Positions 1 to 34,793 of a stretch of DNA of 64,000 bases are shown in pieces; position 1 is the first letter of the stretch; each line of letters begins with the position of its first letter. The notes beneath the pieces were generated by a model, which saw only the letters and a program-made list of their open reading frames with translations, was not told the origin of the DNA and did not search any database. Origin of the DNA: a virus; the IMG/VR virus record IMGVR_UViG_3300020034_000008, positions 1 to 64,000 of that record; one strand, written 5' to 3'. A program made the position numbers and the translations under genes.

Positions 1-2
1 TT

Positions 3-257
3 CTAGCCTTCCTGTTCTGAAAGTAAACGATCGGCTGTATCTGCAGACTCGAACATATCAGCGGCAAGCTTACGCGCTTCGCTTGGTGAGAGGCTAAGCC
101 CCACAAGCTTGACGTCGGTAACATCGCCCGAAGGATGCTTAACCCACAGATCAAGCTTGACCCATGCCACAGAGCTATCAGCGTTCGCGGAAAGGTTAGC
201 GGCGACAGTAGGCAAGCCAGTAATTCCCGGAGGGTTCTTTTTCAGTTTGATTCTCAT
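3..257 (-). CDS. hypothetical protein, 84 aa
   Basis: Last gene of the leftward run as it enters the window. I chose the Met at 257 rather than an upstream start because AAAGGA lies about nine bases before it. The product begins MRIKLKKNPPG and is followed by a soluble, Ala/Asp/Glu-rich half with no Cys, signal peptide or membrane segment. It reads like a small compact domain of the kind common in early phage genes. I do not recognise a family. It lies five bases downstream of the next gene's stop, so it is probably cotranscribed with the leftward genes. Confidence 0.6.
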   Translation of the reverse strand: MRIKLKKNPPGITGLPTVAANLSANADSSVAWVKLDLWVKHPSGDVTDVKLVGLSLSPSEARKLAADMFESADTADRLLSEQEG

Positions 258-262
258 GGTAC

Positions 263-490
263 TTAATCCTTTGTCGTTGCGTACATTGAACGATCTGGAG
301 TGTTGCAGATAGGGGCATCGGTTGCCCACACACGGAAGTATTCCCCGACGCAAGCGCAGCAACCACAATTGATCTTAACGGTAACGATCCATCCTTGCTC
401 TGTGCCAAATACAGCAATGCGGCGCATGGGAGGGGATAGCGTGGCAAGAGCGGAATCAATTGCCTGCAGGTGCATATCGTTTGTGATCAT
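263..490 (-). CDS. hypothetical protein with CGCCAC motif, 75 aa
   Basis: Starts at ATG 490, preceded by an AAAGGAC ribosome site, and overlaps the stop of the upstream gene by four bases (ATGA), which suggests translational coupling. The middle holds three close cysteines (NCGCCACVG), with another Cys near the C-terminus (PICNTP), so metal binding or a redox role is possible. There is no signal peptide. I do not recognise a family. Confidence 0.6.
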   Translation of the reverse strand: MITNDMHLQAIDSALATLSPPMRRIAVFGTEQGWIVTVKINCGCCACVGEYFRVWATDAPICNTPDRSMYATTKD

Positions 491-681
491 GACACACGTC
501 CTTTGATGTCATCGGTGATAAACGGATCTGCAGACCACAACAGGATCTCACAGACAAGCCCTTTCCAAGCGAAGCTATTGCGCCGGTCAGACTTGAGAAT
601 CTTACGACCTTGCGCCTTGCTTACCTCGAACCTGCCATTGCTGGCGACGATAACCCAGCGCGCTTGAATTTTGTCAGTCAT
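487..681 (-). CDS. hypothetical protein, 64 aa
   Basis: Starts at ATG 681 with AAAGGTAG upstream. It is a small soluble protein rich in Lys/Arg in its first half (QGRKILKSDRRN) with an aromatic C-terminal half. The ATGA overlap with the next gene places both in one leftward transcription unit. No known domain was recognised. Confidence 0.6.
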   Translation of the reverse strand: MTDKIQARWVIVASNGRFEVSKAQGRKILKSDRRNSFAWKGLVCEILLWSADPFITDDIKGRVS

Positions 682-722
682 GGCTTCTATCTACCTTTCT
701 GTTCTAGGTTTCGTATCCCTGC

Positions 723-914
723 CTATGCCGACCTTCCTTTGGTTTTGATGAATGTGGGTGGGTGATCGAAAACGTAAACCGTTGCCTTAGCCTGGAAATC
801 ACTGGAGTAATAGCCGGTAGCCTCAGTACAAGCTTGTTCAGCTGTGTCTGCAGTAACGGTTATGATCTTCGAATAGTTCGCGCTATAGGTCCAGAGTACA
901 TAAAACTTTGTCAT
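723..914 (-). CDS. hypothetical protein, 63 aa
   Basis: I chose the internal Met at 914 (MTKFYVLWTYS) because GAAGGGA stands just before it; the longer frame to 983 would run through the conserved promoter-like element. The product has a Tyr/Thr-rich small fold with a repeated pattern of beta-strand-like stretches (FYVLW, KIITVTAD, TVYVFDH). No family is recognised. It is the first gene after the leftward promoter-like element at 934-983. Confidence 0.6.
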   Translation of the reverse strand: MTKFYVLWTYSANYSKIITVTADTAEQACTEATGYYSSDFQAKATVYVFDHPPTFIKTKGRSA

Positions 915-933
915 GGTGGATTCCCTTCGTCTG

Positions 934-983
934 TCGTTTTCGGTACTGTATATAAGTACCACGATTAAGGGCCGACGGTTCAA
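934..983 (-). promoter_or_regulatory. leftward promoter-like element, copy 1
   Basis: On the minus strand this stretch carries TGAACCGT, then GTGGTACTTATA (forward 951-962), then ACCGAAA, in the same order and spacing as at 1773-1822. Both copies sit just upstream of a ribosome site and a small leftward gene. The boxes do not fit a standard sigma-70 spacing well, so the sigma factor or polymerase that would read them is unknown. Calling it a promoter is inference from conservation and position. Confidence 0.5.
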
Positions 984-1019
984 GTTATTTGTTTTATTTT
1001 GAGGCTACCAGTGTAGACA

Positions 1020-1241
1020 CTACTCGCGTTCAGCTGTGAAGGTATCATCTTCCTGTGCGTCGAAGATGACGACAGACACGCCAGCGGGGGCCATGGCACC
1101 AAGCATGTAGACGTGGGTAACAGACCCGTTGCAGATCTCGACCATGCTACCGTCAAGGCGAGGCCCCACGGTTTCGCAGGCAGGGTTAACAGTGGTAGCT
1201 GGCGACAGATACAGCGACAAGGCGAGGAAAAGCGTAGTCAT
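1020..1241 (-). CDS. small secreted protein, 73 aa
   Basis: Begins MTTLFLALSLYLSPA, a short hydrophobic stretch that looks like a signal peptide with possible cleavage near residue 16. The mature part has two Cys (PACETV, EICNGS), which could form a disulfide outside the cytoplasm. AGGAGA precedes the tandem ATG codons at 1244 and 1241. The function is unknown. It is one of several exported products in this window. Confidence 0.6.
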   Translation of the reverse strand: MTTLFLALSLYLSPATTVNPACETVGPRLDGSMVEICNGSVTHVYMLGAMAPAGVSVVIFDAQEDDTFTAERE

Positions 1242-1329
1242 CATTGGAAGATCTCCTGTGCAATTGGTTATCTGATCGATTGTACAGTCTATAGGACCTA
1301 GCAGCGTTCTGCTAAGCCCGAAGGCTGTA

Positions 1330-1575
1330 CTAGCGACGTCCTAAGCGTAGCAAGCGCGCCGATGCTTTTTGCACGTCAAAGGCATGGCCGCTAGCCTCGA
1401 ATTGTCCAGAACGTTGATTTCCGTTTGGCGAGCGATAGGTATGGTCGCCAGCAGGTTGACGATCGTCATAAACGCGCCATGCGCGCTCCGCTCCGGACAG
1501 CAGTGTCGAGAGGCGATCTTGACGGATCGGGGAAAGATTCGTGAAACTGATCGCGGTCTGAATATCCTTGTACAT
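1330..1575 (-). CDS. hypothetical protein, 81 aa
   Basis: Starts at ATG 1575 with GGAG ten bases upstream. The product is polar, with an Arg-rich C-terminal tail (ASARLLRLGRR) and a Gly/Asn/Ser-rich middle that suggests a flexible link. No family is recognised. A frame at 1466-1666 on the same strand overlaps it but has no ribosome site and was left out. Confidence 0.55.
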   Translation of the reverse strand: MYKDIQTAISFTNLSPIRQDRLSTLLSGAERAWRVYDDRQPAGDHTYRSPNGNQRSGQFEASGHAFDVQKASARLLRLGRR

Positions 1576-1611
1576 GATGATTTTCTCCGGTTTTGGCGAC
1601 GTTTACGTGCG

Positions 1612-1740
1612 TTACTTGGTGCAGACGGCGCGAACGGTGGACCACGAAACCAGGCCGAAAAGCCAACCGTTGATCAGAGCATTGCGGTATTCGACGGTTG
1701 CAGAACCCTTGATGAAAGTCACGATTTGCTGATTTGACAT
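1612..1740 (-). CDS. small membrane protein, 42 aa
   Basis: A short leftward frame from ATG 1740 to TAA at 1612, preceded by GGAGATAG, a good ribosome site. The sequence starts MSNQQIVTFIKGSATVEY and has one likely membrane helix around residues 20-38 (NALINGWLFGLVSW region). It fits the gap between its neighbours with normal phage spacing. The function is unknown. Confidence 0.5.
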   Translation of the reverse strand: MSNQQIVTFIKGSATVEYRNALINGWLFGLVSWSTVRAVCTK

Positions 1741-1772
1741 TTTGACTATCTCCGGTTCAAAGTGTTTCGGTC

Positions 1773-1822
1773 AGTCGTTTCGGTCTATGTATAAGTACCA
1801 CAGTTCAGAGCGAACGGTTCAC
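1773..1822 (-). promoter_or_regulatory. leftward promoter-like element, copy 2
   Basis: Second copy of the element at 934-983. The minus strand again shows TGAACCGT, GTGGTACTTATA (forward 1790-1801) and ACCGAAA, followed after some 30 bases by a ribosome site and the 42-residue gene. Immediately upstream of it on the minus strand is AATTCGACGAAATG, which recurs with one change upstream of the gene at 3230. Promoter function is inferred. Confidence 0.5.
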
Positions 1823-1840
1823 ATTTCGTCGAATTATTTT

Positions 1841-2194
1841 TCAAGTCTCAACAATCGAGGTAACGATCCCGGTACCACTGGCGTCCAGCGTGTAGACTGT
1901 GGCAGTACCGTCATTATTGGCATAAACGAACGTCTTAGCGCTTCCTAGCGTGCCCAGCAGGCGGACCCAGCGCTTATGCTCGCCATCGGTCGCACACTCG
2001 CCACGTGTGTGGCAAGCGTAAAACTCTGCAGTGGCGCGAGTCTCGCACACACCAGGCTGGCCAGTGACGGCGCGAACGCCAGCGCACGTAAGCGCGGCAG
2101 GTGCAGTAAGCTTTACAGCCTGGACACTCGCGTCCGTCTCACTTGTGAAGGAAAGTCCGGAGGAAAGCAGACGGAGAATGAGATAGTTAACCAT
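1841..2194 (-). CDS. cysteine-containing exported protein candidate, 117 aa
   Basis: Starts at ATG 2194 with GAGGA nearby upstream. The N-terminus (MVNYLILRLLSSGLSF) is moderately hydrophobic and could be a signal peptide. Four Cys near residues 37, 50, 60 and 67 suggest two disulfides in an exported protein. The C-terminal half is Thr/Val-rich and probably beta-stranded. The family is not recognised. Confidence 0.55.
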   Translation of the reverse strand: MVNYLILRLLSSGLSFTSETDASVQAVKLTAPAALTCAGVRAVTGQPGVCETRATAEFYACHTRGECATDGEHKRWVRLLGTLGSAKTFVYANNDGTATVYTLDASGTGIVTSIVET

Positions 2195-2204
2195 GGGTTT
2201 TCCT

Positions 2205-2345
2205 CTAGTCCGTTGACGTTGTGAGGCGAGCCAAAATCATCAAAGCCGCTAGTGTGTACTCTTCTCTTTCCTCTACTGACCGCGACAGATCAAAGGCTTT
2301 GATCGTCAAGGCAATCGCGCGAGAGAGAAGGCTTTCAGTATTCAT
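2205..2345 (-). CDS. hypothetical protein, 46 aa
   Basis: A short leftward frame starting MNTESLLSRAIALTIKAF, predicted to be mostly helical with a charged centre (SVEEREE). It fits tightly between its neighbours, ten bases from the next start, but has no clear ribosome site, so the call rests on packing and frame. The function is unknown. Confidence 0.4.
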   Translation of the reverse strand: MNTESLLSRAIALTIKAFDLSRSVEEREEYTLAALMILARLTTSTD

Positions 2346-2381
2346 GATCTATACATCGGTAGGTGCGCGGGAAACTTGAGG

Positions 2382-2630
2382 CTACTTGTTTTTTCGGCGA
2401 AGTAATTCGGCGATCGCGTCTTTTTCGGTATCAGCGATCCACGAAGGGTTATACGAACCTGAAACTAAGATCTGTGCGTCAAGGTCGTGCCAACCACCGA
2501 TCCAAGACTCGGCAGCATTCTGGCGCTGTATGCGCGCGGTAGAACCGTCGCTGAATACCAGGATTGTCCAGGTGCCGTTAACAAGGTCACGAGGTGACCG
2601 CGATCGGCTGGTTAGAGTAACCTTGATCAT
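2382..2630 (-). CDS. hypothetical protein starting MIKVTL, 82 aa
   Basis: I placed the start at ATG 2630 because the bases around it (GTAACATGATCAAGGT) also surround the start of the neighbour at 2941, which begins MIKVKIEL. The two genes may share an ancestral 5' end. ATG 2639, three codons upstream in the same frame, is the alternative. The protein has a beta-rich N-terminal part (WTILVFSDGS) and a charged helical end (KDAIAELLRRKNK). There is no strong ribosome site; coupling to the upstream gene, which ends at 2651, is likely. Confidence 0.5.
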   Translation of the reverse strand: MIKVTLTSRSRSPRDLVNGTWTILVFSDGSTARIQRQNAAESWIGGWHDLDAQILVSGSYNPSWIADTEKDAIAELLRRKNK

Positions 2631-2650
2631 GTTACACATGGCAGAAAACT

Positions 2651-2941
2651 TTAGGTGTGCGGACAATCGCGGCGCATTTTGTCGCACAATCGACAAATAC
2701 GGGAATCATTGCGCTCTGTTACTTCGACGTCTGACAGCGAGATCCTGTGATCGTGAGGCACGGCATAGCCAGGGCGGATCAGATCGGCAATAGCCGCTGT
2801 TTCGCCACGAGTAGAACGGCCAAGCGGGCAACCACTGAAGGGGTGTCCGTCGCTGTCTACCAACCACGCGAGATAATTGGTTTTGCCGCTGTCAACGCCA
2901 AGCGGCGTATCGTTTCGCAATTCAATCTTGACCTTGATCAT
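2651..2941 (-). CDS. hypothetical protein with C-terminal Cys cluster, 96 aa
   Basis: Starts at ATG 2941 with GGAG nine to ten bases upstream. The N-terminus MIKVKIEL resembles that of the downstream gene. The C-terminus has CRLCDKMRRDC, a CxxC pair plus one Cys, which may bind zinc. The middle contains a Gly/Pro-rich stretch (HPFSGCPLGR). No family is recognised. Confidence 0.55.
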   Translation of the reverse strand: MIKVKIELRNDTPLGVDSGKTNYLAWLVDSDGHPFSGCPLGRSTRGETAAIADLIRPGYAVPHDHRISLSDVEVTERNDSRICRLCDKMRRDCPHT

Positions 2942-2942
2942 G

Positions 2943-3230
2943 TTACCAATCTCCGAAAGTGCAGACCGGTCTGCACTTGGACACGGCGCAAGAGTGTGCG
3001 CGAATGTCGCGGATACGCATAGCATCGGAATCCTTGCGAGCGCTGGACCACACGATCGGCTTTGCGCCGGAGATTAACTCACGGCAACGGGGGCAGGAAG
3101 GATCCTTGCGGCCAAAAGTCATGGTGCAAGTTTCAGAGTATCGCACCTTGGCCGGTTTCGGCGACAATGCTTTTAGCTCTGTCGCTGGCTTGCCTGGCAT
3201 CGGGTGTCTAGCGTCTGATTTGTTTAACAT
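2943..3230 (-). CDS. small zinc-ribbon-like protein, 95 aa
   Basis: Begins at ATG 3230 and is the first leftward gene after the long non-coding region. Residues 35-51 hold a Cys followed by a CPRC pair (PSCPRCREL), and two further Cys pairs lie near the C-terminus, so a zinc-binding fold is likely. No clear ribosome site is seen before 3230; starts at 3200 or 3122 are possible. A sigma-54-like sequence sits directly upstream. The function is unknown. Confidence 0.45.
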   Translation of the reverse strand: MLNKSDARHPMPGKPATELKALSPKPAKVRYSETCTMTFGRKDPSCPRCRELISGAKPIVWSSARKDSDAMRIRDIRAHSCAVSKCRPVCTFGDW

Positions 3231-3246
3231 TACGAATAGATACTAT

Positions 3247-3262
3247 AGCACGGTCTGTGCCA
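3247..3262 (-). promoter_or_regulatory. sigma-54-like promoter candidate
   Basis: On the minus strand the bases read TGGCACAGACCGTGCT, which matches ten of twelve fixed positions of the -24/-12 consensus, with the GG and GC at the expected separation. It would start a leftward transcript about six bases before ATG 3230. An AATTCGGCGAAATG block lies just upstream. The match could be chance; function is inferred. Confidence 0.35.
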
Positions 3263-3823
3263 TTTCGCCGAATTGTCTAAATGCTTGATTTAACTAGGCT
3301 GTCTTAAACGTAGTGTGTAAACATTTACGCAATTTTGCCTTAAACCGCGCAACCTGTTACGCATATGTGCGCAATCTTATACGCACTATCATATCGGGCA
3401 TCTTATTTGCATTAGCTATAGGCAGTCAATACAGTGTACGTTACTCGTACTACACTACAGTCTCTAGCAGTACCCTGCCAGGCAGGCTAACGACGGTGGC
3501 AAGGTGCGCGTAAAAGTCGCGGGGAGGGATAGGACCTAGGAGAGTCCTAAGGAGTAGTGAGAAGGAATGAGAAGGAATGCTGTGTCGGATGCTGCCCGTC
3601 TGCACTAGTTATGCCACTATCTCTAAACCCGATCATGCTCTTGATGCGTTTAAACGATGGATCATTTGTTGCATAACGTGTTTTATATGCATTATTCGTT
3701 TATGTAAGGGCAAATACAATTGACGCAAATGCTAAAAACGTCAAGGTTGAACGTTCTGGCCCTAGTTAGTAGCAGAGTGCCACTTTCCGCATGACGCGTT
3801 GCCTGTTTCGTCCTATTGCGTTT

Positions 3824-3870
3824 TAACCCTATGCGCACTTTTTTGCGCACATAAACAAATCATAGGGTTA
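3824..3870. repeat. inverted repeat with 10-base arms
   Basis: TAACCCTATG at 3824-3833 is exactly complementary to CATAGGGTTA at 3861-3870. The 27-base interior contains TGCGCAC twice, separated by a T run. It could be a protein-binding site in the control region. The hairpin is not followed by a T tract, so it is not a standard terminator. Confidence 0.6.
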
Positions 3871-4022
3871 GCAACGATGAATTCGCGGCGCGTTAAGTGC
3901 GGCTAGGTGAGGGTAAGCAGAGTTATAGCTCTCTGCATTACACTCATTATCAATCTATAGTCACCATAAGTTTGCGCAAAGTGCGTATGTGGACCCGTGT
4001 GGGTTCAGGCGGGCGAGGCGGA

Positions 4023-4039
4023 CAGAAGTGCCACTTCTG
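4023..4039. repeat. 17-base palindrome
   Basis: CAGAAGTG and CACTTCTG flank a single central C, giving an uninterrupted two-fold symmetric site typical of a dimeric DNA-binding protein. It lies about 110 bases before the first parS-like site. The binding factor is unknown. Confidence 0.5.
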
Positions 4040-4147
4040 CACCATTAGTGTGTATATGCACCAATGCTATGCATGGGCTATGCCAACCTACGTATACACA
4101 CAAGGTGTGCCTATTCGTATGTGTAGCATGCTGTGTAACATAGAGAA

Positions 4148-4163
4148 TGTTTCACGTGCAACG
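4148..4163. promoter_or_regulatory. parS-like site 1
   Basis: The bases TGTTTCACGTGCAACG contain the parS core GTTnCACGTGnAAC and match the classical ParB site TGTTTCACGTGAAACA at 14 of 16 positions. It lies 41 bases before a second such site. Chromosomal ParB binds this family of palindromes in most bacteria. No parB gene is seen in the window, so host ParB or a phage protein elsewhere would be the binder. Confidence 0.6.
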
Positions 4164-4188
4164 TAGGCGAAGACTCACCCTTGCGGTA

Positions 4189-4204
4189 TGTTGCACGTGG
4201 AACA
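4189..4204. promoter_or_regulatory. parS-like site 2
   Basis: TGTTGCACGTGGAACA fits TGTTnCACGTGnAACA at every fixed position. Together with the site at 4148 it also forms a larger imperfect inverted repeat (TTCACGTGCAAC then GTTGCACGTGGAA). Two such matches within 60 bases are very unlikely by chance in 64 kb. Binding is inferred. Confidence 0.65.
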
Positions 4205-4423
4205 GTATTTATATGCACTATGTGTGCCAATGCAGTGTATTTTGTTTATATGCAGTGTTTATGCCAAGTGCCATCATTGCATTAAATGGGCCAAGCTAAA
4301 CGAATTGTGCTGTAAGCAATAGATGTGCCATGACGCACCCCCACACCTTAACGCGTTATTTCTCTCGACGAGGACGGCTACCAGATGTTTTATAAATAAA
4401 AATCGCTCGTCTAACCCTTCACA

Positions 4424-4436
4424 TGCTTCGTTTATA
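4424..4436 (+). promoter_or_regulatory. promoter-like repeat TGCTTCGTTTATA
   Basis: This 13-base string recurs with one change at 4559. Both copies lie in the AT-rich stretch ahead of the rightward genes and end in a TATA-like -10 box. The bases TTCGT and ACGAA around this copy form a short inverted repeat. Promoter function is inferred. Confidence 0.3.
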
Positions 4437-4558
4437 CGAAACAACATGGAATTAAGAGGGTTCTGCTAGAAAATAGAAAAATATAAGAAAAATTCAGAAA
4501 AATATAAAAAATGAAAAATTGCTCAAACACGTACATATTGCGTATAAATGAAACAGAG

Positions 4559-4571
4559 TGCTTCGTATATA
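4559..4571 (+). promoter_or_regulatory. promoter-like repeat TGCTTCGTATATA
   Basis: Second copy of the 13-base string at 4424, running into TATAAT at 4568-4573, a perfect -10 box. No good -35 sits 16-18 bases upstream, so an activator or extended element would be needed. It is the closest promoter candidate to the first rightward gene. Confidence 0.35.
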
Positions 4572-4727
4572 ATGAATAAATGGGATAAAGGTTGCTAATG
4601 CACTGCTGGAAGGAGCCAGGGACGTTACGTAGACCTGTGTAGAAAAATGCCGACCCCTCTTCCCTTCTCCGCTATTTTCTGATAAACCATTAATCCAAGG
4701 ACACCAAGTCCTGTCTTGGAACCCAAG

Positions 4728-5021
4728 ATGCGTTCTTCCCGCAAAAGAGTTAAACGCCGAGACCGGCGCAAGGCAAAGCAGACAGGGTATCGTCGTGCAG
4801 GGAAGACTTCTATGGGTTCGCACGTAGGTCACGGAACTTCTGGAAGTCCTGGTGGCCCACGGAAGTTACCTCTAAAGGTTATTCGACTCGATAAGAACAA
4901 AGTTGCAAAGCCATTGCAGAAACGTAAACCACTTATTGTTGAGGTTGCACCTGAACAAGAGAAAGAGAAATACTCTGTGAAGGCTACAATTGCAGAAATA
5001 CTTTCCGCGAAAGGTAAGTAG
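4728..5021 (+). CDS. basic hypothetical protein, 97 aa
   Basis: First rightward gene. Starts at ATG 4728 with GGA seven bases upstream; a TTG at 4716 is in frame but less likely. Residues 1-25 are strongly basic (MRSSRKRVKRRDRRKAK), as in nucleic-acid binding tails, followed by a Gly/Ser-rich link and a Lys-rich body. It could bind DNA or RNA. No family is recognised. Confidence 0.55.
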   Translation: MRSSRKRVKRRDRRKAKQTGYRRAGKTSMGSHVGHGTSGSPGGPRKLPLKVIRLDKNKVAKPLQKRKPLIVEVAPEQEKEKYSVKATIAEILSAKGK

Positions 5022-5023
5022 AT

Positions 5024-5155
5024 ATGATTTTAGACTTTGCTAATAAAAGAGAACTGTTTCAGATGGCTGTATGGGCTTTTATGGCAGGTGCTGGATTCGG
5101 AGGATTGGTTGGATTCTGGTTAGCATTAACGTTCGGTGTACGAGATAGAAGGTGA
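5024..5155 (+). CDS. small membrane protein, 43 aa
   Basis: Short frame beginning MILDFANKRELFQ with AAGG just upstream, placed over the previous gene's stop region. Residues 14-38 form one Gly-rich hydrophobic helix (AVWAFMAGAGFGGLVGF) followed by a basic end (VRDRR). It is probably an inner-membrane peptide. The function is unknown. Confidence 0.5.
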   Translation: MILDFANKRELFQMAVWAFMAGAGFGGLVGFWLALTFGVRDRR

Positions 5156-5159
5156 ATAG

Positions 5160-5363
5160 ATGAAATATAAAGTAGCTACTCCTGTTGATGCTTCTAAAGG
5201 AATTGGTGTTGGACAAAAACGTACTAGATGGGTGCAAATAGGTACGGGATGGAGTGACGATGTAGGAGGAAAGATAACAGTTGCTCTTTCTGCTCTCCCG
5301 TTTCGTTCAGAGTTTGTCTATCTGTTTCCGGTTGATAAAGAAGGTGAACGAGAGTATGATTAA
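5160..5363 (+). CDS. hypothetical protein, 67 aa
   Basis: ATG 5160 lies four bases after the previous stop. The product is a small beta-rich soluble protein with a Gly/Lys-rich N-terminal third and an acidic end (KEGEREYD). No signal peptide or known motif is visible. Confidence 0.5.
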   Translation: MKYKVATPVDASKGIGVGQKRTRWVQIGTGWSDDVGGKITVALSALPFRSEFVYLFPVDKEGEREYD

Positions 5364-5424
5364 GATGCGTGTGAGAAGTGTGAATAATAATGCCTGTGAA
5401 TTAAGGCGTGTTAAAGTACAATGA
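5356..5424 (+). CDS. possible leader peptide, 22 aa
   Basis: A 22-codon frame (MIKMRVRSVNNNACELRRVKVQ) overlaps the end of the previous gene and closes just before the protease start, where its stop overlaps an ATG. It may only bridge translation between the two genes. No ribosome site is evident. Weak call. Confidence 0.25.
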   Translation: MIKMRVRSVNNNACELRRVKVQ

Positions 5425-5435
5425 AAGGACAAAAG

Positions 5436-6584
5436 ATGCGTAAGTTAACTGTTGCGTTGATCTGTCTGCTAATGCCAGTGTTTTCGTGCGACGATGTTTT
5501 AGACAAAGACAAGATGGGTAAAAGTGTTTCTTCACTTGTCGTTGGTGACGGACCACAGGCTGATTTTGTTGGGCGCTCAGGCAAACGCTACAAGTGGCTG
5601 CGAAAGGTTCCTCTATCTACTGCTCCTGCGTCTAACGGGGAGTGGATTGATCGGGCACCAAAATCTACAACAACACTTGCTGTGCCTAATACTAGGGAGA
5701 GTCTGAGAGAGGGAATGCGTACACACCTGTTCACACCAAACGGTCATGAGTTCATTTCAGATGAGCCTGACGACAAGGTTGTAGACATTATCATGCAAGC
5801 TCAAGCTGGCAAGATCAAAATTGGCAGAGATGCCAATAGGTTTCCTACCAAAGAAGACAGCAGTGAGTTTGGTGTAACAAAGCAACCTTATCTGTGGGCA
5901 AACAATAGACACTTTGCTGGTTGTGATAGGACTAATTACCCACAAGCACAGGCTGTTTGGGTCAATGGTGATTCTGGTGGTTGTAGTGCCACGTTGGTTG
6001 GACCTCATACAGTGTTGAGTGCTGCTCATTGCTTCTACTACAACGGAAACACATCACAACTTACACCAGTTGGTTGGCGAGCAAAAGATTGGCTTACACC
6101 GGGAAAAAACTCAACCACTGATTGTGGTCAATCAGGGGAGCCATTTGGCAAATGGGGTGACTGGAGTGTAGCCATGCCTGGCTATTGGATGAATGGCGAT
6201 GGTAATTGGGATTTTGCAGTGTTAGAGGTTTTTCCTAATGAGACTGGATACAGTCCAGGTCAGTTATTGGGTTGGCTTGGACTAGAGACAGGTACAGAAT
6301 TTATGTTCGCTCAACATCAAGGTTTCCCTGGTGATAAAGAACCATACCCACAGCTTTGGGTCAGTACAGGGTATATAGGCGCAAACTACAACTCTATGCT
6401 GGTGGCTGGTCACACGGACATGACTGGTGGCGACAGTGGTGGTGGTATGCATAATGACTATTACAATGTGATGGGTACGGCTAGTAGAGTGTACCAATAC
6501 TGCTTTTTTACTTGTTCATATTATAATCTTTACCAGGCATGGAACAACAATTTCTATGCATTTGCTGTGCAGAATGGGCTTTGA
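5436..6584 (+). CDS. trypsin-like serine protease, lipoprotein
   Basis: A secreted S1-type serine protease of 382 aa. The start at 5436 is preferred over 5421 because AAAGGA precedes it by six bases. Residues 1-18 form a lipoprotein signal ending in the lipobox VFSC (Cys18), so the mature protein should be anchored in a membrane after export. The catalytic triad is visible: His198 in LSAAHC, Asp259 in NWDFAV and Ser334 in GGDSGGG. Several Cys in the catalytic half may form disulfides. About 150 residues lie between the lipobox and the catalytic domain, possibly a propeptide or stalk. It heads a run of exported proteins. Phages rarely encode such proteases; a role in altering the host surface or as a host-fitness gene is inference. 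Confidence 0.85.
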   Translation: MRKLTVALICLLMPVFSCDDVLDKDKMGKSVSSLVVGDGPQADFVGRSGKRYKWLRKVPLSTAPASNGEWIDRAPKSTTTLAVPNTRESLREGMRTHLFTPNGHEFISDEPDDKVVDIIMQAQAGKIKIGRDANRFPTKEDSSEFGVTKQPYLWANNRHFAGCDRTNYPQAQAVWVNGDSGGCSATLVGPHTVLSAAHCFYYNGNTSQLTPVGWRAKDWLTPGKNSTTDCGQSGEPFGKWGDWSVAMPGYWMNGDGNWDFAVLEVFPNETGYSPGQLLGWLGLETGTEFMFAQHQGFPGDKEPYPQLWVSTGYIGANYNSMLVAGHTDMTGGDSGGGMHNDYYNVMGTASRVYQYCFFTCSYYNLYQAWNNNFYAFAVQNGL

Positions 6585-6723: not shown

Positions 6724-6751
6724 ACAGCTACAAGTGGAGTATGGTAGCGAG

Positions 6752-8146
6752 ATGATAAAAACATCTCGCTACCTACTTCTTGTTTCAGTTCTGTCAACGC
6801 TAGTGTTCACGTCATGTGCTGGGTTTGGCACAAGTGTCAAACTAAAGGCAGAAGAACCTTCTGTTGTATCTACTCCGGTTATTACACCAAGCGGAGTGCC
6901 TAAGATACTTCTTAGGAAGCCTACACCTATTCAGTTTTGGGCAAATGTACCGGTTACTTGGTCATTAAGCTATGGGTTAGGTAACATTACGTGTTGTGGA
7001 TCGTACAATCCTCCAGCGACACATAACTCATGGAACACTGTATTTGTGATTGCAACAAGTGTTGCTGATCCAACGGTTTCATCTAGAGTTGCTGTTAGCT
7101 TCGGACCTTACGAAACACCTGTTGTTGTTGTTGAGCCGCCAGTAGTTGTGCCGACTGGCGGAGAACCACGACCTACTTGGAATCACGGCATAGGGTTCTT
7201 TGTTAAAGACGGTAAACTGTTTGATGCAAACGGAATAGAATTTATAGTGCGTGGTGTTAATAAATTACACTGGGACTCTGTAAGTGAAGGGTTAAAGAAC
7301 AGTGGAGCTAACACTGTGAGGTGGGATGTAAACATGACACGTCCTGCAGAAGGAAACGTGGCAATGCTTCTTGGGGCTGCTGATAAGGCAGGAACTGTTG
7401 GAAGCAAAGTAGTGGTGATGCCTGGTAATTGGGAGGGAACGTGTTCGTCAAATACAGACGTATTGACAAAGATTGTCGATAAATGGGTAGATCAAGCTGA
7501 AACGTGGAAGAAGTTAGAGAAGTACATGATTCTAAACATTGCTAATGAGTGGGGGCCAGCAGACAACGTGGTGTGGAGAGACAGTTATATTGCGGCAGTG
7601 AAAAGAATTCGTGCAGCAGGATGGATGGGAACTATATCTATTACAGCGGGTGCGTGTGGGCAAGATAGTCCAGATATTCTCAAATACGGACAGGCGGTAT
7701 TGGAGTCTGATTCAGAGAAGAATATAATCTTTGACTTACACGTTTATGGGTTTTTGTACGATTCAGCAGATGCAAAAGTTGCTCCTAGGTGGGGGCAAAA
7801 GGACATAAGTACAGTGTTTGCTGACTTGAAAGCTTCTGGACTGGTTGTTGTGATTGGAGAGTTTGGTCCTGGTAATAACGTAGGACCTTCACCAACAATG
7901 ATTCCACCGAAGAGGGTTGTTGAGTTGGCAGAGAAGAACGGAATTGGGTGGTTGGTGTGGGCATGGGACGACAACAATTTGATGGGTGGATTGAGTGATG
8001 ATAAGTGGTTCTCTATGTCTTATAAAGGAAAGTACGACACCTCTGCTGATTTGACTTTATTTGGAAAGGAAACAGTTGAAGATCCTGTTGTCGGATTAAA
8101 AGTTTTAGCTAAACCAGCTTCCATTTACACAGTAGGAGTTAAGTAA
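6752..8146 (+). CDS. GH5-like glycoside hydrolase, lipoprotein
   Basis: A 464-aa exported glycosidase. Residues 1-22 are a lipoprotein signal with lipobox FTSC (Cys22). Residues about 40-120 look like an Ig-like domain, followed by a Val/Pro linker. The catalytic part begins with FFVKDGKLFDANG and carries RGVNKLHW, the acid/base Glu266 in NIANEW and the nucleophile Glu370 in IGEFGPG, with a later WLVWAWDDN. This is the pattern of family 5 cellulases and mannanases acting on beta-1,4 glycans. The start at 6752 is chosen over a GTG at 6734 so that the signal is N-terminal. The substrate cannot be told; host capsule, a plant-type polysaccharide or extracellular matrix are possible. Confidence 0.85.
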   Translation: MIKTSRYLLLVSVLSTLVFTSCAGFGTSVKLKAEEPSVVSTPVITPSGVPKILLRKPTPIQFWANVPVTWSLSYGLGNITCCGSYNPPATHNSWNTVFVIATSVADPTVSSRVAVSFGPYETPVVVVEPPVVVPTGGEPRPTWNHGIGFFVKDGKLFDANGIEFIVRGVNKLHWDSVSEGLKNSGANTVRWDVNMTRPAEGNVAMLLGAADKAGTVGSKVVVMPGNWEGTCSSNTDVLTKIVDKWVDQAETWKKLEKYMILNIANEWGPADNVVWRDSYIAAVKRIRAAGWMGTISITAGACGQDSPDILKYGQAVLESDSEKNIIFDLHVYGFLYDSADAKVAPRWGQKDISTVFADLKASGLVVVIGEFGPGNNVGPSPTMIPPKRVVELAEKNGIGWLVWAWDDNNLMGGLSDDKWFSMSYKGKYDTSADLTLFGKETVEDPVVGLKVLAKPASIYTVGVK

Positions 8147-31868: not shown

Positions 31869-33635
31869 ATGGCCGAAATGTTAAGCCCCGGTGTGCAGTT
31901 TACAGAGCCGCGCACGGCTCCCAACGATGTGCCCAGTGCATCCACAGCTGTTGGTTTGATGCTTGGCATTGCCGAACGTGGGCCAATCAATGATGCACAA
32001 CTTATCGGTGACTTTGGTACCTACGTGCGAATTTTCGGTAACTACTACCTTGGTAGCCCGCTGCCTGGAAGTGTTAAAGGATTCTTCGATAACGGCGGCA
32101 AGTCTCTGTGGGTTACTCGCGTTGGGCACTATACAACGATCACTGATGCAACTACGCTCGATGCTGTTAAAGCTATTTATCAATTGCAAGGTGATGGTCC
32201 TGCGAATACAGCGCTTATCTCTGCGTCGTCACATGGCCAGCACGGCAATGCTCTGTCTGTCACAACTGCACGAGTTAACACTCTGATTGCGAAAACAACG
32301 GCACTGTTAGCTGCGTCTGCGCAGTTGTCTGCACCTCTTGACGACGTTAGACGAGTTTACGTTGGTGCTCAACTTCTTCTTGCAGATGCTGGTACACCTT
32401 CACAGCACGCGCGTGTAGTTGTTACACGAGTTGATTCAGCTCAAAAGCTGGTATATTTTATATCAACTACGCCTACTGGTGCTATTGCGTCTGGTGGCAC
32501 AGTTACTCTTGAAGAGTCTGACATATCGATCTTGCGCGAAGGATCGTTTATTGAGAGAATTTCTCGCCTTGCTATGTCAACGTTGGCTGGAGAGTTATAC
32601 TTCAAGGATAAAATCAACAATAAAGATCCTGTACGTCAGATTGAAGTTACAACTGACAGTGCGTTGGCTGCAACTAATGCCGTTGATCCTCGTCCGCTTG
32701 TTGTTACAAGTCAGCCACTAACTACTGGCTCTGACGGTACTACACCTAATGATGTTGACCATGTTGGAAGTTCTGCTTCTGCCACTGGTTTATACTCGTT
32801 TGATGTCATTAGCCAAGGTAATCTTTTAGCAATCCCTGGACGTCCTACACTAGCTGTGCATAACGGAATTATTACATACGCTGAAGCACGTAAGACGCTA
32901 TTTGCTATTCTGGCTGTTAACAAAGGCCAAACACCTATACAGGCTCTTACTTATGTGCAAACTACGGCTAATTTGTTCAGTGAGTACGCTGCTGTATATT
33001 ATCCTTGGATAAAGATTGCTGATGCAACTACTGGTCAGCTTGTTGACCATACTCCTGAAGGTATGATTATGGGTGACTACGCTCGCACAGACGCTACGCG
33101 CGGAGTGCAGAAAGCACCTGCAGGAACGCCGGATGGGCGATTGATTAATGCTCTTGGACCAGAACGTGTGCTTACTCAAACTGACCGTGATTTGCTGTAC
33201 CCTGCCAACATTAACCCGATTATTGCACCTACTGGGCAGGGGACGATTACGTATGGTTCGCGTACGTTGTCGTCGGGTGACTTCCGGCAGATAAACGTGC
33301 GCCGTGTGTTCCTCTTTTTCAAGTTGTCGTTAGATGCAGGTACAGCGTGGGTTGTGTTCGAAGAGAACAACTCACAGACTCGCGGTAAGGTGCGTAAGAC
33401 TGTGGCCGCGTTCTGCTTGCGCCAGTGGCGCAAGGGTGTGTTGATGGGTGACAAAGCATCGAACGCTTTTATAGTTCAGTGTGATGAAGACAACAATCCA
33501 CCTTCTGTAATTAATGCTGGACAACTCGTGTGTAGTGTTAGCTTGGCTGTTTCACGACCTGCCGAGTTTGTTACCTTTGAATTGCGACAGGATACGCGTA
33601 GCGCCGATGCAGAATTAGCGGCTGCTGGTCTTTAA
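31869..33635 (+). CDS. contractile tail sheath protein
   Basis: A 588-aa protein beginning MAEMLSPGVQFTEPR, a standard sheath opening. The N-terminal part has the FGxYVRIFGNYY and VKGFFDNGGKSLWVTRV motifs typical of sheaths, and the C-terminal 180 residues (ALGPERVLTQTDRDLLYPANINPI onward) are the conserved core ending FVTFELRQ. It wraps the tube and contracts at infection. It defines this phage as a myovirus. Confidence 0.92.
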   Translation: MAEMLSPGVQFTEPRTAPNDVPSASTAVGLMLGIAERGPINDAQLIGDFGTYVRIFGNYYLGSPLPGSVKGFFDNGGKSLWVTRVGHYTTITDATTLDAVKAIYQLQGDGPANTALISASSHGQHGNALSVTTARVNTLIAKTTALLAASAQLSAPLDDVRRVYVGAQLLLADAGTPSQHARVVVTRVDSAQKLVYFISTTPTGAIASGGTVTLEESDISILREGSFIERISRLAMSTLAGELYFKDKINNKDPVRQIEVTTDSALAATNAVDPRPLVVTSQPLTTGSDGTTPNDVDHVGSSASATGLYSFDVISQGNLLAIPGRPTLAVHNGIITYAEARKTLFAILAVNKGQTPIQALTYVQTTANLFSEYAAVYYPWIKIADATTGQLVDHTPEGMIMGDYARTDATRGVQKAPAGTPDGRLINALGPERVLTQTDRDLLYPANINPIIAPTGQGTITYGSRTLSSGDFRQINVRRVFLFFKLSLDAGTAWVVFEENNSQTRGKVRKTVAAFCLRQWRKGVLMGDKASNAFIVQCDEDNNPPSVINAGQLVCSVSLAVSRPAEFVTFELRQDTRSADAELAAAGL

Positions 33636-33660
33636 TCTGTAACTTTACTAGGAGATATAA

Positions 33661-33693
33661 ATGTCACGTACCAGCGTTGAGACTAACAACTAA
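33661..33693 (+). pseudogene. remnant of the tube gene start
   Basis: Ten codons (MSRTSVETNN) follow a good AGGAGATATAA site right after the sheath, exactly where the tube gene is expected. The first seven residues MSRTSVE are the same as the start of the true tube gene at 34326, but the codons for Ser, Arg and Thr differ. The HNH gene lies between the two. It reads like the original tube start left behind when the HNH gene entered. Confidence 0.6.
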
Positions 33694-33696
33694 ACC

Positions 33697-34320
33697 ATGC
33701 CGTTCGGTCTCATTAAACGAAGGTTTGGCATAGAACGAGCGTGTGCTTGTGGCTGTGGTCTGCTATTACCAAAAACTGTCTATCACGGTAAGATGCGTGA
33801 GAAATATGGTAAATACCCGCGCTTTATAGTTGGTCACGCAACTAGAGATCCTAAAATAAAGTTGCTTATAAAAGGAAGACCAGACGTTATAAAGCAGTGG
33901 TTGATAGACAACGAAGGTAAGTTTAAGTGTCAGTGTGGAGGATGTGACAGAACTATTAAGTTACAACGAGACTACCACAGTAAAGGTGTGCCTCAATACG
34001 CGCATGGACACCACCCGAATAGTTCCAAAAGCTCTGCACAGTTGGAGTTAGGTATAAATACTATTAGGCGCAAATTTTTAATGGCAGACCGTGTAGACGC
34101 TCTTGTCAGGTATGACTATCTGTGCGCAGTTTGTGGGTGGGGTGGTAAAGATAACGTTAAATATTTTGAATTTGACCACATTGTTCCTATCGCTAAAGGT
34201 GGGCTAACATGTGCCGATAATTGTCAACCATTGTGTCGTACATGCCACAAAGCAAAAACTAAACAAGATAACAAAGAACGAACCACCCATGTTGTTGGGC
34301 AAGGGTTTAGAGGAGCGTAG
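33697..34320 (+). CDS. HNH homing endonuclease
   Basis: A 207-aa nuclease. Residues 140-190 form the HNH core: CAVCGWGG (Cys143/146), FEFDHIVPIAKGG (His161), DNCQPLCRTCHKAK (Asn175, Cys180/183, His184). The N-terminal 110 residues contain two copies of a Cys/Gly-rich unit (ACACGCG and CQCGGC, each followed by an aromatic stretch and GH), probably DNA-binding. It sits between sheath and tube and its 3' end supplies the ribosome site (GAGGAG) for the tube gene. Such genes spread by cutting phage genomes that lack them. Confidence 0.88.
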   Translation: MPFGLIKRRFGIERACACGCGLLLPKTVYHGKMREKYGKYPRFIVGHATRDPKIKLLIKGRPDVIKQWLIDNEGKFKCQCGGCDRTIKLQRDYHSKGVPQYAHGHHPNSSKSSAQLELGINTIRRKFLMADRVDALVRYDYLCAVCGWGGKDNVKYFEFDHIVPIAKGGLTCADNCQPLCRTCHKAKTKQDNKERTTHVVGQGFRGA

Positions 34321-34325
34321 TATAC

Positions 34326-34793
34326 ATGAGTAGAACTAGCGTTGAGGACCCCCTTAAGGTTTTTAGATTCGTTGTTGAGATCAACGGAATGGCTAAGGCT
34401 GGGTTCATGGAATGCTCTGGCCTTGAACGTACCTCTGACGTTACAGAGTATCGTGAAGGTGGAGACAACTCTACTCCTCGCAAATCACCTGGCTTGTCCA
34501 AGTTCAGCGACATTACGTTGAAGCGTGGGCAGGTGATGGATGAGGGGCAGAATGATCTTTACAATTGGTCTCAAGAGGTGTTTGATGTCGAGTCTCTTGG
34601 TGTTGACGTGCGCGACTTCCGTCGCGATGTTGACATTGTTGTATTCGAGCGTGGCGGTTTGGAAGCTATTCGTTGGCGCGTACATAACGCTTTTCCGTCG
34701 CGATTTAAGACACCAGACATGAACGCTACCAGTAGTGACGATGCAATTGAAGAGATGGTATTGACATACGAGGGATTTCAGAAAGTCGTTTAG
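34326..34793 (+). CDS. tail tube protein (T4 gp19-like)
   Basis: A 155-aa inner tube subunit. FRFVVEINGMAKAGFMECSGL and the following GGDNSTPRKSPGL are the conserved N-terminal part of myovirus tubes; the C-terminus ends VLTYEGFQKVV. Its start duplicates the small remnant at 33661 with changed codons. It stacks inside the sheath as the DNA channel. Confidence 0.88.
   Translation: MSRTSVEDPLKVFRFVVEINGMAKAGFMECSGLERTSDVTEYREGGDNSTPRKSPGLSKFSDITLKRGQVMDEGQNDLYNWSQEVFDVESLGVDVRDFRRDVDIVVFERGGLEAIRWRVHNAFPSRFKTPDMNATSSDDAIEEMVLTYEGFQKVV

Follow-up and report, generated by a model that had tools for sequence, protein, structure and literature searches.

We describe a tail tube gene of an uncultured bacteriophage that appears to have been entered, directly after its seventh codon, by a free-standing HNH gene of the homing type, which would have brought with it a new 5′ end derived from a diverged tube gene. 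Judging from the sequence, we give this reading a probability of about 0.6. The window, that is, the whole stretch of DNA analysed, comprises bases 1-64,000 of a 74,330-base viral record, a metagenomic viral contig. Profile matches on this record identified terminase, portal, major head protein, sheath, tube and baseplate protein genes of a contractile-tailed phage.

Elsewhere in the window, positions 1-5400 are devoid of long convincing ORFs and reach a G+C content of 0.54, against approximately 0.44 for most of the rest. A gene for a trypsin-like protease (5421-6584) adjoins a lipoprotein-like gene of glycoside hydrolase family 5 (cellulase, PF00150 8e-21; 6734-8146), and three tRNA genes are found between 61967 and 62686 (Ile, anticodon TAT; Thr, TGT; Leu, TAA).

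Two tube gene starts flank an HNH nuclease gene

All features of the region lie on the plus strand. The upstream neighbour is the tail sheath gene (31869-33635; 588 aa; PF17482 3.2e-9, PF04984, PHROG 23 1.5e-59), and its stop (33635) is separated from the tube start (34326) by 690 nt. Behind the sheath gene, an AGGAG ribosome-binding site (33650-33654), which presumably belonged to the tube start originally, ends 6 nt upstream of the ATG of a ten-codon stub, MSRTSVETNN (33661-33693), reading ATG TCA CGT ACC AGC GTT GAG ACT AAC AAC TAA. Its codons 1-7 would be the displaced native 5′ end of the tube gene and the remainder would be element sequence. We place the left junction of the insert between 33681 and 33682, after the GAG of tube codon 7, position 33681 being the last base common to the stub and the tube copy. 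The HNH ORF (33697-34320; 207 aa; PF01844 1.4e-12, PHROG 144 1.7e-13) begins 3 nt past the stub stop codon and has no Shine-Dalgarno sequence of its own. Its last codons contain AGAGGAG (34309-34315), the present ribosome-binding site of the tube gene, which starts 5 bases beyond the HNH stop. The tube gene is complete (34326-34793; 155 aa; PF06841 7.5e-37, PHROG 4542 2.5e-25) and opens with a second, synonymously different copy of MSRTSVE (34326-34346), reading ATG AGT AGA ACT AGC GTT GAG GAC CCC from position 34326, a version also written ATGAGTAGAACTAGCGTTGAGGACCCCCTTAAGG. The insert thus delimited amounts to 665 nt, only 41 of which fall outside the HNH ORF. The first-pass annotation had described this same succession (the stub after the sheath, with the tube ribosome site, then the HNH gene and a tube gene beginning again with MSRTSVE), and its description proved exact by sequence and ORFs. 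RNA folding at both starts was no better than in shuffled sequences, and nothing stood out in a search for promoters and terminators in the insert.

The HNH gene is a stand-alone ORF, as in free-standing homing endonucleases, and its catalytic domain is intact: residues 143-190 (34123-34266) contain all of the CxxC, DH, N, H and CxxC motifs of PF01844. Upstream of this domain, the sequence alone delineates a C-x-C-x-C...GH module (residues 16-47; 33742-33837), putatively involved in zinc or DNA binding, and a second module of the form C-x-C-x-x-C...GH (residues 78-105; 33928-34011). Neither has a match in Pfam; both probably serve DNA binding. The closest solved relatives by sequence are the HNH domains of ZRANB3 and of a 5-methylcytosine-specific restriction enzyme. 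No homologue of the protein with a known target, nor a close one with a known insertion history, was found, and single-sequence structure prediction was uninformative (pLDDT 28).

The stub very likely feeds translation of the HNH gene by reinitiation, because it retains the strong ribosome site of the tube gene and terminates 3 nt before an HNH start that has no ribosome site. The same arrangement could be accounted for by an ordinary intergenic HNH gene with a leader peptide; the stub would then have been kept as an upstream ORF modulating translation of the HNH gene, and its match to the tube start would be a leftover that plays no part in homing. The short distance from stub stop to HNH start and the missing ribosome site speak for this idea, which nonetheless leaves the exact spelling of the tube start unexplained and still requires an insertion inside that start. 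We consider it unlikely as a separate explanation; it is largely a consequence of the tube gene having been invaded after codon 7 and hardly a competitor.

The two starts differ only at silent positions

The stub and tube starts form a 26-nt direct repeat, 73% identical and with a spacing of 665 (TATAAATG.../TATACATG...), that extends from TATA(A/C)ATG onwards; upstream of TATA.ATG, homology between the copies does not exceed that seen among other ribosome sites. The downstream copy begins directly after the HNH stop codon, so everything from that stop to the tube core could be tube-derived. The match ends exactly at the start of the conserved tube core (DP...), which indicates that the insert lies within the coding sequence.

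Over codons 2-7, six of 18 bases differ between stub and tube and no amino acid changes. The differences are confined to Ser2, Arg3 and Thr4, while Ser5, Val6 and Glu7 have identical codons (AGCGTTGAG in both copies), precisely as the first-pass annotation had it when it spoke of other codons for Ser, Arg and Thr. The stub version of the start is written TCACGTACCAGCGTTGAGGAC and the tube version AGTAGAACTAGCGTTGAG. For six random differences in 18 nt, the probability that all are silent is 7.5e-5. Moreover, Ser2 is encoded by TCA in the stub and by AGT in the tube copy, a switch between serine codon classes; substitutions leading from TCA to AGT, or the reverse, must pass via another amino acid. 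In the simplest reading, each copy was until recently the start of a functional tube gene in a lineage of its own: that all six differences are silent, the TCA/AGT switch included, argues for two lineages, both selected for an unchanged protein, rather than for a fresh duplication followed by decay. The annotation's further suggestion, that the tube copy had been recoded, stands as regards the second copy and not as regards its cause: recoding by selection is unneeded, since a 5′ end acquired from a diverged homologous tube gene explains the copy equally well.

The likelihood that SRTSVE would follow a given start by chance is approximately 9e-8 at the phage's own composition, and the peptide does not occur elsewhere in the six frames. 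No other comparable pair of starts within 3 kb was found when all plus-strand start codons of the 74,330-base record were surveyed. For comparison we used about 1 Mb of other viral loci. Pairs of starts preceded by ribosome sites, spaced 200-3000 nt apart and sharing five identical post-start residues did not occur elsewhere in 133 loci (1.85 Mb counting both strands), and under a looser rule (5/7 residues; 2.08 Mb counting both strands) the stub/tube pair was the only one to reach six. Likewise, the first 50 kb of phage T4, which include six homing genes, contain no repeated start of this kind.

Codon usage offered a further clue to where the second start came from. In the tube gene, arginine is encoded by AGA at codons 3 and 14 and by CGN at each of the 11 later positions (Fisher P 0.013); set against the head gene, the sheath gene and the rest of the tube gene, the AGA bias, noticed post hoc, has P 0.006. 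General codon-usage scoring found the first 14 tube codons unremarkable (rank 9 of 141 windows scored). The AGA codons are only a hint of a foreign tube 5′ end, because the bias was picked out after the fact and the score of these 14 codons is not extreme.

Sheath and tube genes are neighbours in distant relatives

The nearest relatives found for the tube protein, roughly 30-46% identical to it, are encoded by IMG/VR contigs, by one contig of a Dehalococcoidia MAG and by Streptomyces phages. Approximately 60 distinct relatives (contigs with tandem genes and confident matches, overlaps removed; more if weak matches are counted) have sheath and tube as neighbours, the tube start being no more than about 100 nt away from the sheath stop. 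An HNH gene between the two is absent from all of them, distant as they are (tubes at most 46% identical), in keeping with the sporadic occurrence of free-standing homing genes among related genomes. This adjacency implies that sheath and tube were likely adjacent ancestrally and that the window's HNH gene is likely an insertion between them. The first-pass annotation had proposed such an insertion together with a replacement 5′ end, a proposal that is well supported by the anatomy of the region and by the relatives. It had also expected relatives lacking the HNH gene to have the stub sequence at the sheath-tube junction. Here, adjacency was borne out in distant relatives, the tube starts of which do not align over codons 1-7. 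Their N-termini (an alignment of 12 tubes is highly divergent) become alignable only from the DP motif onwards, the very point at which stub and tube part, and for this reason the relatives cannot tell which codon version is native. Searches of IMG/VR, a genome collection, phages and plasmids yielded nothing above 46% identity and thus neither a close relative with an empty site nor a donor lineage; the IMG/VR queries were tube, sheath, HNH and terminase, plus two alignment searches. A degenerate DNA pattern for MSRTSVEDP had 0 matches in IMG/VR, a search that may omit records closely similar to the window.

One exception to the compact junction was L060, a contig of a distant relative, with 942 nt between sheath and tube (L060:5489-6420). 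This insertion contains no stub and carries reverse-strand genes resembling those of toxin-antitoxin systems (HicB-like, ParE-like and Phd/YefM-like). In L061, a relative of L060, the corresponding gap measures a mere 16 nt (L061:5483-5498). The sheath-tube junction may be a favoured place for insertions in the tail operon. A number of contigs (L004, L006, L007, L009-L013, L056, L068, L072, L074, L076 and L077) have two successive sheath-tube pairs, in an arrangement reminiscent of injection machines.

That tube duplication occurs in this group, as the several related contigs with two pairs indicate, raises the possibility of a tandem duplication in which an older upstream tube gene, or its start, was overwritten by the HNH gene and only the stub was left. 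We regard such a history as quite unlikely. Paralogous tubes in two-pair contigs have no N-terminal residues in common, unlike stub and tube, which agree at seven in a row; a TCA/AGT switch without amino-acid change is not expected of a recent duplicate, and past codon 7 there is no remnant of an upstream tube gene. As the record is a metagenomic viral contig, the region could also be a chimera in which assembly joined two strain variants, only one of them carrying the HNH gene. This is improbable, the 9 identical bases at the junction being too short for a k-mer join and the fusion of stub stop and HNH start being compact and functional-looking. Finally, a spliced or bypassed element, with the stub as true first exon, is scarcely credible, be it an intron of group I or II or a ribosome hop as in T4 gene 60, split by mobA (PMC3014915). 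Taking out the insert between the AGCGTTGAG copies does give back MSRTSVEDPLKV. Yet the second copy is equipped with a ribosome site and a start of its own, and the last exon base within the direct repeat equals the last intron base, contrary to the U...G rule of group I introns. A group I intron with an HNH gene is excluded by size, as the 41 of 665 nt outside the ORF cannot accommodate a group I core, and by the lack of any Rfam match even at E<=1.

Discussion

How could an essential gene survive insertion after its seventh codon? In the model that we favour, the incoming DNA would have consisted of the HNH ORF and the 5′ end of a tube gene from a diverged homologous phage. The tube gene would have been rebuilt behind the insert with a ribosome site and start of its own, and the recipient's old start left upstream as the ten-codon stub. 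A polycistronic transcript would permit such replacement of a 5′ end, since each gene starts on its own. We infer that the second start derives from a diverged donor tube gene. Were this phage crossed with one that has no such HNH gene, the sheath gene and the stub would then provide the left homology arm and the tube gene the right one; through repair the recipient would acquire the HNH gene along with the new start, and its own start would become the stub. On this model the stub is still perfect because it functions as a start, or did so until recently.

The model makes the empty site predictable: it would be TCACGTACCAGCGTTGAGGACCCC, and the stub start joined to the tube core gives ATGTCACGTACCAGCGTTGAGGACCCCCTTAAGG. 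Sequence differences in the new 5′ end would protect the element's own chromosome from the nuclease. That the silent differences confer this resistance is only plausible. The two copies have AGCGTTGAG in common, and the differences start 9 nt from the junction; a nuclease reading only these nine junction-side bases would therefore cut both copies. Resistance requires that the nuclease read codons 2-4 or beyond, or that downstream bases of which there is no second copy were replaced as well. The cut site that the first-pass annotation had read from the repeat is a guess: it holds in a model resembling the WHO elements of yeasts, where the end of the displaced fragment marks the cut, but free-standing enzymes of phages often cut hundreds of bases away from their own gene (PMC2988022).

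The WHO elements found in Torulaspora and Lachancea provide FBA1 with a resistant 3′ end in place of the old one, which is pushed aside; allele-specific cleavage has been demonstrated (PMC7282813). The phage locus resembles them in having a nuclease gene beside an essential gene, flanked on one side by a displaced gene fragment (33661-33681) and on the other by the complete gene. The WHO host gene is chimeric, and the FBA1 alleles carried by WHO resist its nuclease, a resistance that is presumed for the phage tube; the tube start differs from the stub at 6/18 nt, all silent, and codon-usage support for a chimera is weak. WHO elements replace a 3′ end and leave a 3′ fragment, whereas the phage element would have replaced a 5′ end and left a 5′ fragment. 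WHO proteins are intein-derived zinc-finger fusions in a eukaryote, whereas the phage element encodes an HNH protein and, unlike WHO, uses the operon and ribosome site of the gene it invaded. By this analogy, the phage element would work like WHO but is no member of that family, because of its HNH protein, the 5′ end and the phage tube gene. Endonuclease ORFs of the Allomyces (atp6) and Glomus (atp6, atp9, cox2, nad3) mitochondria carry foreign 3′ gene ends that differ from the native ones largely at silent positions (PMC3630166). The likeness lies in an endonuclease ORF placed in a gene together with a replacement end that differs silently from the displaced native end; the mitochondrial ORFs replace C-terminal ends and encode LAGLIDADG or GIY-YIG enzymes, in contrast to the 5′ end and the HNH enzyme of the phage.

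Among phages, the closest counterparts are the seg and mob genes of T4 and mobE of Aeh1, free-standing nuclease genes that lie in operons and borrow translation from the upstream gene (PMC2988022). Six of the 12 free-standing homing genes of T4 lack a discernible initiation region and depend on upstream genes (PMC2988022). Elements of the T4 and Aeh1 type co-convert flanking markers and sometimes insert inside essential genes, but then leave the host gene divided into parts that encode separate functional polypeptides; none in PMC2988022 rebuilds the gene with a second start. In the literature searched, coverage of which was incomplete, we came across no phage homing gene that is described as having a host gene with a rebuilt start.

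Free-standing homing genes of phages usually lie between genes or split them. It is possible, and we put it forward tentatively by analogy with WHO, that the present locus represents a replacement-homing element of phages, in which the HNH gene moves together with a 5′ end of an essential virion gene that resists cleavage and differs synonymously from the usual one, and cuts the ordinary starts of co-infecting phages, the old start becoming a stub that expresses the nuclease. If this element carries its own immune version of the gene, phages would share with yeast and fungal mitochondria a mode of homing into essential coding sequence without splicing. If true, bacteriophages would have invented the WHO strategy independently and in mirror image, and virion protein genes would become targets in phage-phage competition. 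The repeat yields a short candidate target, the two versions of which can be compared directly for cleavage.
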